Virus record (IMG/VR): IMGVR_UViG_3300025449_001003
Span: 1-20,182 of that record
Origin: a virus
Reading direction: 5' to 3' (one strand)
DNA length: 20,182 bases
Below, piece after piece: positions 11,480 through 17,745 of this stretch. The stretch's first letter is position 1. The number at the start of each line of letters is the position of its first letter. The translations under genes were made by a program, and so were the position numbers. A model generated the notes under the pieces. That model did not search any database and had not been told where the DNA came from. It saw only the letters and a list, made by a program, of their open reading frames with translations.

Positions 11480-12160
11480 TTATTTGTTCCACACTAATTT
11501 TGATAATTGCTCTAGTGTATTTATCGACGAATCTCTATTGCATAGCATGTGATACTCATCTACGCTATCACACCACTTAGACCCAGTCCAAAACTCAAAC
11601 CCATCAAATCTGCATTTGTATAAGCATGTTGTACCATAGCCAGGACCAATATAAAGGTAATCTAATCCTAATGATTTTGCATACTGAACTTCATAATCAA
11701 CTATCTTTATTCCAAGTGATAGTTTTGGTTCAGCATAATCCCAAGCAGTAAATTGACTTTCTATTCCACCATCATACAGGAGAAACTTAGTGAACGCAAC
11801 GAGTCTCTCGTCTTTGTGAACAAGTAACCATTTAACTCTATAAATGTCAGATGATATATTATACTGTGGTGTAAAATTTCTAGCGGTAACAAAATCATCA
11901 AATACTCTTTGTATCTCTTCTGTAGGATATATGTTATCTGCTATTGTGAATGTATGCTGCTTGACAGGCTTTGGTAGCTTATTGTGCTTTGATAGATCAA
12001 GGCGAACCATACGCGAAGCGTACCACTCGCCATTCTGTATTCCCCAGCCTTGACTGAGGGCATCCGATTCTCTATCATCCTCTAGATCTAATGATAGCTT
12101 ATAGCCTTGGTAATCGTATGCATCGATATTACCAAAGATGTGATTGATTATTGTTTTCAT
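11480..12160 (-). CDS. GNAT/arginyltransferase (ATE)-like protein (226 aa)
   Basis: The C-terminal half (residues about 148-205: SLGIKIVDYEVQYAKSLGLD, YLYIGPGYGTTCLYKCRFDG) resembles the arginyl- and leucyl-tRNA-protein transferase (ATE/Bpt) C-terminal domain, where SLG-x-x-x-(I/L)-x-x-I-x-x-A-K-x-LG-x-x-Y-x-Y-LGY-x-I-x-x-C-x-x-M-x-YK-x-F-P is typical, a GNAT-fold aminoacyl-transferase. The N-terminal half lacks the CxxC-type Cys cluster of true ATE proteins as far as I can see. It may transfer an amino acid or acyl group to a protein or small molecule; substrate unknown. ATG at 12160 overlaps the upstream TAA by one base. Confidence 0.68.
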   Translation of the reverse strand: MKTIINHIFGNIDAYDYQGYKLSLDLEDDRESDALSQGWGIQNGEWYASRMVRLDLSKHNKLPKPVKQHTFTIADNIYPTEEIQRVFDDFVTARNFTPQYNISSDIYRVKWLLVHKDERLVAFTKFLLYDGGIESQFTAWDYAEPKLSLGIKIVDYEVQYAKSLGLDYLYIGPGYGTTCLYKCRFDGFEFWTGSKWCDSVDEYHMLCNRDSSINTLEQLSKLVWNK

Positions 12161-12738: not shown

Positions 12739-13218
12739 TTAAGCAGCCAGAATATCCTTAAGCCTATCAGCCGCATAAGAAGCAGCAAATGCATCTGGCT
12801 TTATCATAGGAACAACATTACACATACCGCGAATGTAACCTACAGCTTGTTGTGCAACACAAGATGATCCATGCTTAAGATCAGGATTGATATCGAGATG
12901 AACTTCAAAGTGTCTATCACCAATAGCATCTGCAAGATCAAGATAAAGCTGAGCAGCTTTCATTACCTCATTCATAAGACGCATTGCTGGCTTGTCCATC
13001 TTCTGATCGTAATCACGTTCAGTTATTACTTCACCAAACACTTTACAACCTCTACAGCCATCATAGTGAACGACAACAGCTAGCGTATAGTCTGCCATCC
13101 ACAGCTGTGACTTCTTCTTACGATAGCGTTCTGAGTCAGCACCAATATAAATTGCTGTTTCAGGAGATGTGTTACGAATGAATTTTCTGATTTCTTCTAG
13201 ATCAAATTTAGTACGCAT
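12739..13218 (-). CDS. YkuK-like (DUF458) RNase H-fold protein (159 aa)
   Basis: Matches the DUF458/YkuK family, predicted RNase H-like. Seen here: YIGADSERY with D28, VHLDINPD with D109 at 107-113, VGYIRGMCNVVPMIKPDAFAASYAADR (126-152) with K140-P-D142 and D151, the family's hallmark C-terminal block. The acidic positions fit a two-metal nuclease site. Function in phages is not established; RNA or DNA processing is plausible. It is the first protein gene after the tRNA, 15 bases beyond its CCA, with an AGGTG site 4 bases before ATG 13218. Confidence 0.83.
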   Translation of the reverse strand: MRTKFDLEEIRKFIRNTSPETAIYIGADSERYRKKKSQLWMADYTLAVVVHYDGCRGCKVFGEVITERDYDQKMDKPAMRLMNEVMKAAQLYLDLADAIGDRHFEVHLDINPDLKHGSSCVAQQAVGYIRGMCNVVPMIKPDAFAASYAADRLKDILAA

Positions 13219-13232
13219 ATTACACCTGTTAA

Positions 13233-13309
13233 TGGTGCGGGCGGGGAGACTCGAACTCCCAGAACTCAGATTTTAAGTCTGATACGGTTACCTATTACGT
13301 CACGCCCGC
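13233..13309 (-). tRNA. tRNA-Leu (anticodon UAA) with short variable loop
   Basis: A 77-nt cloverleaf including encoded CCA. Acceptor GCGGGCG/CGCCCGC is a perfect 7-bp stem with discriminator A; D-arm is a 3-bp ACG/CGT stem with an 11-base loop containing GG; anticodon stem TCAGA/TCTGA with loop CTTAAAA gives anticodon UAA (13273-13275), reading UUA; T-arm is GGGAG/CTCCC around TTCGAGT. The D-arm geometry is that of class II tRNAs, but the variable region is only GTTCT, not the long arm of bacterial leucine tRNAs. It is transcribed from P7 and co-transcribed with the YkuK-like gene. Confidence 0.93.
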
Positions 13310-13324
13310 AATACTGTATTAATG

Positions 13325-13353
13325 ATCATACTTATAACCATTACAAAAGTCAA
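13325..13353 (-). promoter_or_regulatory. Sigma70-like promoter P7 (tRNA and downstream block)
   Basis: Minus strand: -35 TTGACT (13348-13353), 17-bp spacer, -10 TATGAT (13325-13330). It starts about 16 bases before the tRNA 5' end and its -35 box overlaps the stop codon of the gene ending at 13350. Confidence 0.82.
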
Positions 13354-14486
13354 CGGTAATTTGCAAATGTATTATCTGGTCTCATAAACGTTTCAACATC
13401 AAATTCATATAAGAAGTCAAGCTGATCGTTGATTGCAATACATGTTTCCTTCTTAAGCAGCAATGCTCTCAAGCTACCCATTTTGACCTTATAGTCACGG
13501 TAATCTGTGTCCTTGTTGAAGTCATAGATGATATCTTTACACGTTTGCTTATACTTCTTCATCGTATCACATATCAGTTTATCACTGTTATTCATGCTCC
13601 ACAATTGGAAGTCAACGGGTGAGTAGAACATTGTGTAGTCATCCATATTGAATGTATCGTGATGTTGCTTGATTGCAAACGTTGCACTTCTCATATAGAC
13701 ACTTTGCCATTTACATGTAAAGTTGATCCACCACAACCACTTATAGATACTGTCTACTTCAAATGGAGCATTCAAACAGATAGTGTTTAGGATTTCATAA
13801 ACCATCTTTCCATCTTCATAGCTTTCACACTCACCTTCAAAATGCTTAATAAGCAGATCAGGATCAGGTTTAACTTCCCATGGCTTTGTTGTAAATGCAT
13901 GTGTGTTGTTTGTAATAACAGCACTACCAAACAGCTGATCGTTTCCTTCACCTGTAACAATGATGTATCTTGGGTCACCAATGTATCTGTGGAAGAAGTG
14001 GCTATTCCTTACTTCAAACACCTTTGTAATGTGCTCATCATAGAATCTTCTGTTCTCAACGATACTATCATCATTCATAAGAATAATAACATGATCTTTA
14101 AGGTCTTGCTTACTGATGTTCTTTAATAAGCTAACAACAACAAGAGTACTATCAACGCCACCAGAGTACATAACAACCAACTTCTTGTTGTTATTTTTTG
14201 CTCTATTGAATAATTCAATTGCTCTTTTGTTACAAATCTCTTCGAATGTTAGTGGCTGCTTTGCCATCTTAGGCAACTCCAACCCTGGAATACTAATAGT
14301 CTTGAATGGAGTGGTGATTGTCCCACTACGATCGTGGAATGACAAATTAGAACCAAAGCTCTTATGTATTGCAAGATAAGAGCTTATTCCAGCGTAGTTT
14401 TCACTTGGCAAGTCACTAAAATATCTTTCGTTGTTATGAAAGATATTGCTACCACTATAAAAATACAAACCATTAGACTGATGCAT
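13350..14486 (-). CDS. Asparagine-synthetase-like PP-loop ATP pyrophosphatase (378 aa)
   Basis: Residues 108-114 SGGVDST form the PP-loop that binds ATP, and TGEGNDQLFG (178-187) matches the SGEGADELFGGY-type motif of asparagine synthetase B. The N-terminus has no catalytic Cys2 or glutaminase domain, so ammonia from glutamine hydrolysis is not expected within this chain. Such stand-alone domains adenylate a carboxylate or a carbonyl group and add an amine or sulfur; here the substrate is unknown. An amino-acid or cofactor/nucleotide modification role is possible. A longer frame begins at TTG 14507, but ATG 14486 is preferred. It overlaps the upstream gene by 14 bases and ends on promoter P7. 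Confidence 0.83.
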   Translation of the reverse strand: MHQSNGLYFYSGSNIFHNNERYFSDLPSENYAGISSYLAIHKSFGSNLSFHDRSGTITTPFKTISIPGLELPKMAKQPLTFEEICNKRAIELFNRAKNNNKKLVVMYSGGVDSTLVVVSLLKNISKQDLKDHVIILMNDDSIVENRRFYDEHITKVFEVRNSHFFHRYIGDPRYIIVTGEGNDQLFGSAVITNNTHAFTTKPWEVKPDPDLLIKHFEGECESYEDGKMVYEILNTICLNAPFEVDSIYKWLWWINFTCKWQSVYMRSATFAIKQHHDTFNMDDYTMFYSPVDFQLWSMNNSDKLICDTMKKYKQTCKDIIYDFNKDTDYRDYKVKMGSLRALLLKKETCIAINDQLDFLYEFDVETFMRPDNTFANYR

Positions 14487-15186
14487 TAACGTAACTTTCT
14501 GTTTCAAATTGTTTCAATGCCAAGAATATATCATCCATCTTTTCAGCTTTCAATATCTTGTCTGTGAACTTTAATCTAAGGTTCTCGATACCGCTGAGAT
14601 ACATTATATCACCTTCCGCTTGGAAGATAATTTGTTTAGCTGCTTGCTCTACAGGAATCTGTTTGAGTTCAGCATAATCATGAACAAAATATGTGTTTAG
14701 ATATTCAGTATCGCCTGCAAGATATTTGTGTGCTTGTTCAGCTTTTACTCTGTATATCTCTCCTTGATAGGGAAGGCTTCCTCTATACAGTTGCAACTGT
14801 GAGAATTCTATCTTATGAAGAAGGACTTCAACAGCAAAGCACTTTTCGTTGATAAGTTCAAACTCTGCAATATATGATGGATCAACGTTCTCCAAGCTAG
14901 GATCATAAACCAGCATTTGTGTCGTTTGACACCATCTATAAAACCATGGTTGTATTGCTGTATTGATTGGACCAGGAAAGCGGCGGCCGATGTTAAGAAC
15001 TAGCTTGAGCCCTTGTCTTAGCTCTTGGAAACATCTTCCTACATAAATGAAACTTGTAAAGTAAATAACACGTCTTGTTTCAGGATCAACTAACCCAGCA
15101 AACCTGTTATTCATATACATCATGCTTTGCATGATTTCTTGTTTATGCTCTTCGTATTCTCTTCGAGCCTTACCAAATAAACTCAT
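14473..15186 (-). CDS. Phage hypothetical protein (237 aa)
   Basis: Not recognised with confidence. The N-terminal part is mainly helical (MSLFGKARREYEEHKQEIMQ, then DPETRRVIYFTSFIYVGRCFQEL), the middle has LQLYRGSLPYQGEIYRVKAEQAHKYLAG, and the C-terminal half (AELKQIPVEQAAKQIIFQAE, then LSGIENLRLKFTDKIL) recalls the helical part of tail-fibre assembly chaperones, where residues like A-x-x-Y and A-x-x-I recur. That link is weak. It overlaps its neighbours on both sides (ATGA at 15183), showing it is part of the same operon. Confidence 0.75.
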   Translation of the reverse strand: MSLFGKARREYEEHKQEIMQSMMYMNNRFAGLVDPETRRVIYFTSFIYVGRCFQELRQGLKLVLNIGRRFPGPINTAIQPWFYRWCQTTQMLVYDPSLENVDPSYIAEFELINEKCFAVEVLLHKIEFSQLQLYRGSLPYQGEIYRVKAEQAHKYLAGDTEYLNTYFVHDYAELKQIPVEQAAKQIIFQAEGDIMYLSGIENLRLKFTDKILKAEKMDDIFLALKQFETESYVNASV

Positions 15187-15590: not shown

Positions 15591-15844
15591 TCGTCTTCGT
15601 CATAGTCCTGGTCTTCTTCCCACTCATCGTCATCGTCATCATCCCAAGAATCTTCAGGATCAACTGCTTCAGAGGAAATAACCTCATCTAATACAGTATC
15701 AATACCAACATACTGTTCAATGTCAATATCGTTTTCTGATAATACTGAAACGATAGATTCAAATACTTCGTGCTTATCTTCATCAATTAATGATTGTGAG
15801 ACAGCATATAGGATTTCGTTTACAATTCCGTCAATATCAGTCAT
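15587..15844 (-). CDS. Small protein with poly-acidic tail (85 aa)
   Basis: An N-terminal helical part (MTDIDGIVNEILYAVSQSLI, then SVLSENDIDIEQYVGIDTVL) is followed by a run of Asp/Glu from about residue 66 to the end (DDDDDDEWEEDQDYDEDE). Such tails can mimic nucleic acid or bind basic partners; function not known. ATG at 15844 has GGAG 6 bases upstream; the frame extending to 15883 lacks a good start. It overlaps the nuclease gene by 8 bases and the GIY-YIG gene as ATGA. A role as acidic inhibitor or escort of the neighbouring nucleases is speculative. Confidence 0.72.
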   Translation of the reverse strand: MTDIDGIVNEILYAVSQSLIDEDKHEVFESIVSVLSENDIDIEQYVGIDTVLDEVISSEAVDPEDSWDDDDDDEWEEDQDYDEDE

Positions 15845-16667
15845 CGGATGCTCCTTTACATTGCTTCTTCTTATCAGCAGCAATTGTCTTTAGGTCTGCT
15901 ACTGGTGGAGGGTTCTTGATATTCTTTGCATCAGGAACTGGGAATGTAATACCAGAAGCCTTTTCAACGTCAGCCACTGTTACCTGATACTGAGTAAAGT
16001 CAGATGACAATCCATCCTTATGTGGGAATAAGAAAGCATACGACTTTTTAGTTGTATTGTCAATAACAATCTTGAATAGTGCGTCAGGAACAACTACCTT
16101 ATCTGCACCAATTGTCTTTGATGATGAAGAGTAAACATTACCAGCATAGAATGTATGTGGATGTTTTGTTTGATAGACCCAAGCACGTCCTGCTGATTCT
16201 AAGTTCTTCCATGTTCCACGATTAACTGATGGCAGTTGTGGTGACATGTTAGACATATAGAATGATTCATGCTCAACCTGATTATCCCAAGACATATCAG
16301 CATCGTTTGCTAGATGACCTTGATCATAACCAGAATGGGCGTAATCATCGGGTGTAGATCTGGCTCCGTTAGGTAAAGATAAGTCAGTAGCGAAAGCATT
16401 AGTCCGAGCAACGCAACCAATAGCATGGTCAGGCGTAAGAGTCCAAGCAACCCAATTGGGAATCTTAGCAACTGGATCATGCTCCAAGAGATAAGCAGTA
16501 CGGCAGATAACTGGATGATTAGCAACGGTTGAAGGTGAGCCATATGGAATTTGTGCTGCACATGAGGTTACTGGTTTAGGTGGAAGTTGGTCGGCAGCAA
16601 ATGCGATCGACCCAAGCGCACCAAGTGCGAAAATAATACTAAAGTGTAAAGCCTTTAAAAGTTTCAT
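15837..16667 (-). CDS. Exported DNA/RNA non-specific endonuclease (276 aa)
   Basis: Beta-beta-alpha-metal (NUC1/Serratia nuclease) family. Residues 1-24 form a signal peptide (MKLLKALHFSIIFALGALGS with an AFA end before A25), so the enzyme acts outside the cytoplasm. The active-site block is YDQGHLANDADMS (114-126): H118 is the general base, while Q116 replaces the Arg of the usual DRGH motif. N140 and N149-R150 (VNRGTW) are the usual metal-site neighbourhood. Cysteines at 36, 55 and 85 could form disulfides in the periplasm. ATG at 16667 has AAGGA at 8 bases; the upstream frame lies in nrdB, which it overlaps by 29 bases. A periplasmic role against incoming DNA, or host DNA release, is inference. 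Confidence 0.9.
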   Translation of the reverse strand: MKLLKALHFSIIFALGALGSIAFAADQLPPKPVTSCAAQIPYGSPSTVANHPVICRTAYLLEHDPVAKIPNWVAWTLTPDHAIGCVARTNAFATDLSLPNGARSTPDDYAHSGYDQGHLANDADMSWDNQVEHESFYMSNMSPQLPSVNRGTWKNLESAGRAWVYQTKHPHTFYAGNVYSSSSKTIGADKVVVPDALFKIVIDNTTKKSYAFLFPHKDGLSSDFTQYQVTVADVEKASGITFPVPDAKNIKNPPPVADLKTIAADKKKQCKGASDD

Positions 16668-17745
16668 TAGATACATCCTTCCTGACACCTCCCACGACGT
16701 AGGAGCTAATTTCTGTTTCTTGTGGAGCTACTTGAACCTCTGCACCACTGATCCACTTTTGTGTCCAAGGAAGAGGGTTAGATCCGTTTTTGTATATAGT
16801 CGGCAACCCAACAGCTGTCATACGTTTATTGCAAATCCATTCAACATAATCATTAAGAAGTGTCTCATTGAGACCAATCATTGATCCATCTTTGAATAGA
16901 TAGTGAGCCCAAGCCTTCTCTTGTTCAGCTGCATCCTTAAACATCTGAATGCATTCATCCTTAGTTTCTTCACGAATCTTTGCAAAGTCTGGATCATCGG
17001 TAGGTAATACCTTCAATAACTGCTGTGTGCCAGCAAGATGCAGGTTCTCATCACGAGCAATCAACTTGATGATCTTCGCGTTGCCTTCCATCTTCTTCAA
17101 TTCAGCGAATGCCCAAGAGCAAGCAAAGCTGACATAGAAACGAACACCTTCAAGAATGTTGACCGACATGAGTGTGAGCCACAGAGCTTTCTTGTGCTCA
17201 TATTTTTCATGCAGAATTTTTTGACTTAAATTTTTTGCATGTTCCAAGTCGTTATTATAAGCAATTAAGTTGTCGTAGTACTTGCTGATGTCGCCAGCGC
17301 AGTCTACGATCTCCTGCATGTCTAGAATACCGTCGAACACCTCTGATGGGTTGGCGTAGATGTTTCTGATAATATGAGTGTATGATCTAGAGTGGATGGA
17401 CTCGCTAAATGCCCAAGTAAGGATCCAGTTCTCAAGTTCTGGTAAACTACAAATTGGACCGAAGGCGACCGTAGGAGCTCTGCCTTGAACACTGTCGAGT
17501 AGGATCTGACGCTTGAGGTTTGAAGTAAAGATGTGCTGTTCATGCTCAGTCAATCCTTTAAAGTCTTTAGCATCACGATAGATATCAACTTCCTCTGGAC
17601 GCCAGAAGAACCCTAGTTGCTTTTCTGTTAGCTTCTCAAGGAATGGATACTTTTGCTTATCATAACGAGCAATAGTGGGTGGATCATCAAAGAATGCTTT
17701 GACGGTTGTAGAATCTTTACGGTTAGTTGAATCAAAAACGCTCAT
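16639..17745 (-). CDS. nrdB: Ribonucleotide reductase class Ia small subunit NrdB (368 aa)
   Basis: Diiron-tyrosyl radical subunit that starts catalysis in NrdA, making deoxyribonucleotides for phage DNA. Iron ligands and radical are visible: D84, E115, H118, E199, E233, H236, and Y122 in SESIHSRSYTHIIRN (114-128), with the first ones at the same numbers as in E. coli. The C-terminus SYVVGG-FKGFTL contains the expected R1-binding tail ending in a hydrophobic peptide. Length is close to E. coli NrdB (376 aa). ATG at 17745 overlaps the TGA of the small gene between nrdA and nrdB; GAGGG lies 9 bases upstream. No intron or homing insertion. Confidence 0.96.
   Translation of the reverse strand: MSVFDSTNRKDSTTVKAFFDDPPTIARYDKQKYPFLEKLTEKQLGFFWRPEEVDIYRDAKDFKGLTEHEQHIFTSNLKRQILLDSVQGRAPTVAFGPICSLPELENWILTWAFSESIHSRSYTHIIRNIYANPSEVFDGILDMQEIVDCAGDISKYYDNLIAYNNDLEHAKNLSQKILHEKYEHKKALWLTLMSVNILEGVRFYVSFACSWAFAELKKMEGNAKIIKLIARDENLHLAGTQQLLKVLPTDDPDFAKIREETKDECIQMFKDAAEQEKAWAHYLFKDGSMIGLNETLLNDYVEWICNKRMTAVGLPTIYKNGSNPLPWTQKWISGAEVQVAPQETEISSYVVGGVRKDVSNETFKGFTL

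Follow-up and report, generated by a model that had tools for sequence, protein, structure and literature searches.

Canonical class II leucine tRNAs are defined by a long variable arm, and the tRNA-Leu of phage T4, 87 nt long in NC_000866, does carry the long arm that the earlier note had ascribed to it. According to a review of tRNA identity, charging of tRNA-Leu in E. coli depends on A73, A15-U48, G18G19 and A20a, neither the sequence nor the fold of the long arm correlates with charging, and tRNA-Leu variants without the arm stay active; in animal mitochondria, where tRNA-Leu(UUR) has no long arm, the leucyl-tRNA synthetase (LeuRS) charges it mainly on A73 and A14 (PMC9976931). SerRS, in contrast, uses the long arm (PMC7609411; PMC11541572). 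In the Mycobacterium mucogenicum clade, the tRNA-Leu(TAG) of a tRNA gene cluster is reported to have a short variable loop, unlike the long-looped standard isoacceptor (PMC6582537). Among phages, the tRNAL2 gene of Salmonella phage 5 (T5-like, AJ604531) has a 5-nt variable region (GTTTT) and, according to its GenBank record, reads UUA and, once its anticodon has been exchanged for CUA, acts as an 'effective amber suppressor'. This shows that a short body of the tRNAL2 type can be charged and used by the ribosome, the inserted amino acid being unnamed in the record.

The window analyzed here, i.e. the whole stretch of 20,182 nt of viral DNA, contains a single tRNA gene according to ARAGORN, a tRNA-Leu(taa) (Table 1). 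A covariance-model search accepted it as a tRNA (Rfam RF00005, E = 5e-12), with a score of 63.8 bits where the cut-off is 29 and with every pair intact. Minimum free energy folding on its own failed to recover the complete cloverleaf (z = -2.1), a result that is uninformative beside the more suitable covariance model. ARAGORN, Rfam and a structure read-out bear out the previous description of a 77-nt cloverleaf with a UAA anticodon, an A discriminator, an encoded CCA, a D-arm of 3 bp and 11 bases and a variable region of merely five bases. The read-out comprises a 7-bp acceptor stem (GCGGGCG/CGCCCGC) followed by TG, a D-arm with stem ACG/CGT and loop TAATAGGTAAC followed by A26, an anticodon arm with a 5-bp stem (TCAGA-CTTAAAA-TCTGA), and a T-arm, also with a 5-bp stem (GGGAG-TTCGAGT-CTCCC), followed by A73 and CCA. 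All 20 helix pairs are standard, as they are in L114, a relative described below. With five nucleotides in its variable region, the molecule lies outside the canonical class II leucine tRNAs, taken as those with an arm of at least 10 nt, and its 7/5 acceptor/T-stem differs from the 8/4 or 9/3 base pairs that define allo-tRNAs (PMC7609411). The anticodon reads UUA and, by wobble, UUG; TTA and TTG together make up 35% of the leucine codons in the window, the GC content of which is 38%.

Table 1. Position of the tRNA-Leu(UAA) gene, its elements and neighboring features in the window.
Feature	Position	Strand	Description	Basis
tRNA-Leu(UAA) gene	13233..13309	-	77 nt with encoded CCA	ARAGORN, Rfam RF00005
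Anticodon UAA	13273..13275	-	ARAGORN position 35	ARAGORN
Variable region GTTCT	13261..13265	-	5 nt, last base is U48	structure read-out and script
A15	13295	-	pairs with U48 (Levitt pair; E. coli leucine identity element)	position table, PMC9976931
A73	13236	-	discriminator base	sequence
Putative sigma-70-like promoter	13325..13353	-	TTGACT-17-TATGAT, ends 15 bases upstream of the tRNA	10/12 matches
RNase H-like protein gene	12739..13218	-	next gene downstream of the tRNA; synteny anchor	PF04308 / phrog_11311
226-aa protein gene	11480..12160	-	about 1 kb downstream of the tRNA	
385-aa protein gene	13350..14507	-	between the tRNA and its upstream neighbors	
DNA/RNA non-specific endonuclease gene	15837..16688	-	product looks secreted, judging by its N-terminus	PF01223

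With Salmonella phage 5 tRNAL2 the window tRNA shares its length, anticodon, A73, encoded CCA and the 3-bp D-stem and 11-nt D-loop, 50 of the 77 bases being identical, but tRNAL2 is one of a large cluster of tRNA genes, and the window gene has no other tRNA gene within its 20 kb. Its body, D-arm geometry, A15-U48, A73 and anticodon loop are those of canonical class II tRNA-Leu, from which it departs in the defining arm. The animal mitochondrial tRNA is organellar and weakened in its folding, whereas the phage gene specifies a full, G+C-rich cloverleaf, and the M. mucogenicum clade gene differs in its bacterial tRNA cluster setting and its anticodon. Short tRNA-Leu bodies with A73, like that of the window, are also present in cultured phages of differing hosts (Cronobacter phage S13, Aeromonas phages BUCT695 and APT65, Stenotrophomonas phage DLP6, Erythrobacter phage L02 and Leptolyngbya phage Lbo-JY46), with UAA, CAA, UAG, CAG and GAG anticodons, and some of these phages encode long-arm tRNA-Leu as well (UAA in APT65, UAG in DLP6). 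DLP6, the nearest cultured phage to the window by its RNR and RNase H-like proteins, combines short CAA, GAG and CAG genes with its long UAG gene. The Erythrobacter phage (vB_EliS-L02) has a tRNA array and a tmRNA-like gene beside a proteasome-like gene, and its tRNAs are unannotated in the record.

The earlier note had regarded the short form as exceptional, but hundreds of cultured phages, and Actinobacteria, carry short tRNA-Leu genes. BLAST searches located them in Cronobacter, Aeromonas, Erythrobacter and Leptolyngbya phages and, with a consensus-like relative as query, matched 481 phage records, most of them from T5-like Salmonella and Escherichia phages; 365 of these records align along 80% or more of the gene, and the alignments among the matches listed show no length change. 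The region of T5 itself (AY543070) that was read has a long tRNA-Leu(UAG) as its sole tRNA-Leu gene. When viral contigs were scanned inclusively, 21 of the roughly 107 CCA-encoding UAA genes among the matches listed were short, a share of about one fifth that is an estimate from sampled genes of that kind. At loci picked because they carry a long UAA gene, the other leucine tRNAs numbered 36, and 15 of these were short. The window tRNA has the leucine anticodon, A73, A15-U48 and variable region of about 4-7 nt by which the phage short-arm genes are grouped. A FastTree phylogeny built from 376 leucine cores of both forms contains at least 32 changes between short and long, the 65-nt cores being too short for a count of losses.

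Beyond phages, a pattern scan of genomes detected the short-arm UAA gene among Actinobacteria, with a few further groups also represented. For 10 actinobacterial genomes, a pattern that tolerates length differences gave a single credible UAA tRNA, a short one; atypical long genes could escape this pattern, and the other matches were not individually confirmed as tRNAs. A class-wide actinobacterial sample, for which an encoded CCA was required, gave 1 long and 3 short carriers in 60 genomes, the low number of genes probably being due to that requirement. The short gene is apparently the sole UUA-reading tRNA of the actinobacterial genomes that contain the loci L232, L240, L242, L243, L259, L282 and L289 and at other genome loci. 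In the earlier note, many phages carrying the same short tRNA-Leu with documented charging were named as the observation that would speak against its proposal; the many phages are there, whereas documented leucine charging of a short phage tRNA-Leu was not found. No paper devoted to short-arm phage leucine tRNAs was found in the open literature either. The short-arm phage tRNA-Leu is a known but little-described kind, to which the window gene adds another member.

The amino-acid identity of the tRNA body was assessed using a simple position-wise classifier with the anticodon and variable region masked, based on 1,847 ARAGORN tRNAs from the fetched loci. Long-arm Leu was the best class for the masked window tRNA, 7.6 nats ahead of Lys; the classifier called only 2 of about 1,120 tRNAs of other isotypes Leu. 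Identity to the nearest long-arm Leu core is 0.82, compared with 0.73 for the closest other isotype. The window tRNA keeps A73, U8/A14, A15-U48, G18G19 and A20a, i.e. all of the E. coli leucine identity elements that were checked. Jointly, A73, A14, A15-U48 and G18G19 occur in 92% of short and 96% of long leucine tRNAs and in 17% of other class I tRNAs, and A73 is present in all 254 distinct short tRNA-Leu genes. These comparisons support the view, already taken in the earlier note, of a leucine-type body in class I form. Many short tRNA-Leu genes of a second body type were not called Leu by the masked classification, and the identity of those genes is therefore less clear. Two suggestions on the function of the short form did not hold. 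Altered recognition by LeuRS, or altered charging, is not a necessity, since all leucine identity elements checked are retained and E. coli LeuRS is arm-independent (PMC9976931). Escape from a host nuclease acting on the anticodon loop is likewise rejected, as the loop CTTAAAA is also the commonest one in long tRNA-Leu(UAA), where it is present in 82 of 95 genes.

Relatives were compared using the RNase H-like protein encoded downstream of the tRNA as a synteny anchor, and 6 related viral contigs were found. A short-arm tRNA-Leu(UAA) lies upstream of the RNase H-like gene, at or near the same place, in all 6. In one of them (L380) both the tRNA and the RNase H-like protein are identical to those of the window, and this contig probably represents the same phage or a very close one. 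The nearest distinct relative, L114, differs by 8 substitutions that constitute 4 double compensatory changes (3 acceptor pairs and 1 anticodon-stem pair), with no unpaired base differing, a pattern that indicates that the tRNA gene is under selection and by which a pseudogene is rejected. The short tRNA-Leu(UAA) of L381 (2406-2483) and L384 (1684-1759) has a clearly different body type, and in L384 one extra gene separates it from the RNase H-like gene. Since the bodies differ and the UAA short form stays, the function would have been kept or re-acquired while the sequence was replaced, which suggests replacement of the tRNA gene with its function preserved. Sigma-70-like sites, differing from that of the window but similar to it, precede the tRNA in L382, L381 and L384 with 9-10 of 12 matches. 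The promoter score of the window was reached by 63 of 2,000 shuffles and that of the L381 site by 477 of 2,000; each site is weak taken alone, and their role as tRNA promoters is suggestive only.

The gene for the 226-aa protein lies on the same strand as the tRNA and is conserved in relatives, though none was seen in the examined part of L381, which has the tRNA. Its product has a weak ATE_C match that is over the cut-off (28 versus 25 bits), and its low-confidence structural model (mean pLDDT 57.8) matches MprF, FemX and ATE1 (E ~1e-5, TM ~0.4), all of which are aminoacyl-tRNA-dependent transferases. In cultured phages, tblastn matched it only twice, distantly, in records named Acinetobacter phage MD-2021a. 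The protein may possibly be a phage aminoacyl-tRNA-dependent transferase, and a functional link between it and the tRNA-Leu is speculation. It is highly unlikely that the tRNA partly serves as donor to this ATE1/Bpt-, FemX- or MprF-like protein, such that the phage would leucylate a host protein or lipid and the short arm would divert the tRNA from translation. The 385-aa protein, absent from the corresponding place in L114, has very weak matches only, to ATP-pyrophosphatase families (asparagine synthase, LarE). The predicted endonuclease is conserved in L114 and L384.

The favored reading, to which we assign a probability of roughly 0.85, is that the gene encodes an ordinary leucine adaptor for UUA and UUG during infection, charged by the host LeuRS. 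The tRNA would be transcribed on the minus strand, probably from the host-type promoter directly upstream; the host enzyme would charge it with leucine, and it would then supply leucine at both codons in the infected cell. Bacterial LeuRS is expected to read A73, A14, A15-U48 and the D-loop/T-loop contacts, leaving the long arm dispensable, and because the enzyme needs no arm, phages may often keep a shorter leucine tRNA that lacks it. At the loci where the leucine tRNAs were counted, the long arm is present in all 98 serine and all 42 tyrosine tRNAs; a loss confined to leucine fits relaxed constraint, as LeuRS ignores the arm and SerRS uses it. One point against this reading is that the swapped anticodon of the tRNAL2 suppressor could attract another synthetase. 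That anticodon and body can disagree is illustrated by a human tRNA-Leu(CAA) gene without the long arm, whose body marks it as derived from tRNA-Met (PMC8450103), so that the window tRNA might analogously be charged with another amino acid and recode UUA in phage genes. Such recoding is very improbable, given a masked body of leucine type, a core closer to long-arm leucine tRNAs than to any other isotype, and the retention of the leucine identity elements checked.

Compared with this leucine adaptor, a decaying or non-functional class II remnant would account for the departure from the class II standard, yet the compensatory changes and lack of unpaired substitutions relative to L114, the encoded CCA, the persistence in all 6 relatives and the promoter-like site upstream make decay so improbable that it can be nearly dismissed. 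The short arm could also act against host defense, if it puts the phage tRNA out of reach of nucleases that grip or cleave a variable arm, so that UUA translation continues. Septu and retron-Eco7 do cleave the variable loop of host tRNA-Tyr, T5 tRNA-Tyr resists retron-Eco7 through its distinctive variable loop (PMC13096335), and the toxin MenT3 requires the long arm of tRNA-Ser (PMC11541572). This role is nevertheless unlikely: no nuclease was found reported to cleave tRNA-Leu in its variable arm; tyrosine tRNAs, known targets of such cleavage, are long-armed in every gene counted above; and in some bacteria the short form is the only UAA tRNA found, leaving no host tRNA to outlast. The window tRNA is real, probably functional, and of a widespread short-arm kind.

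Taken alone, the window gene is a routine phage tRNA, and its interest lies in the wider pattern. The textbook rule of the long arm fails for some Actinobacteria and for about one fifth of the viral UAA genes sampled, and tRNA classifiers whose training relied on class II leucine tRNAs may misjudge such genes. The loss of the arm in leucine tRNAs only would amount to a natural confirmation of the biochemistry, namely that LeuRS ignores the arm.
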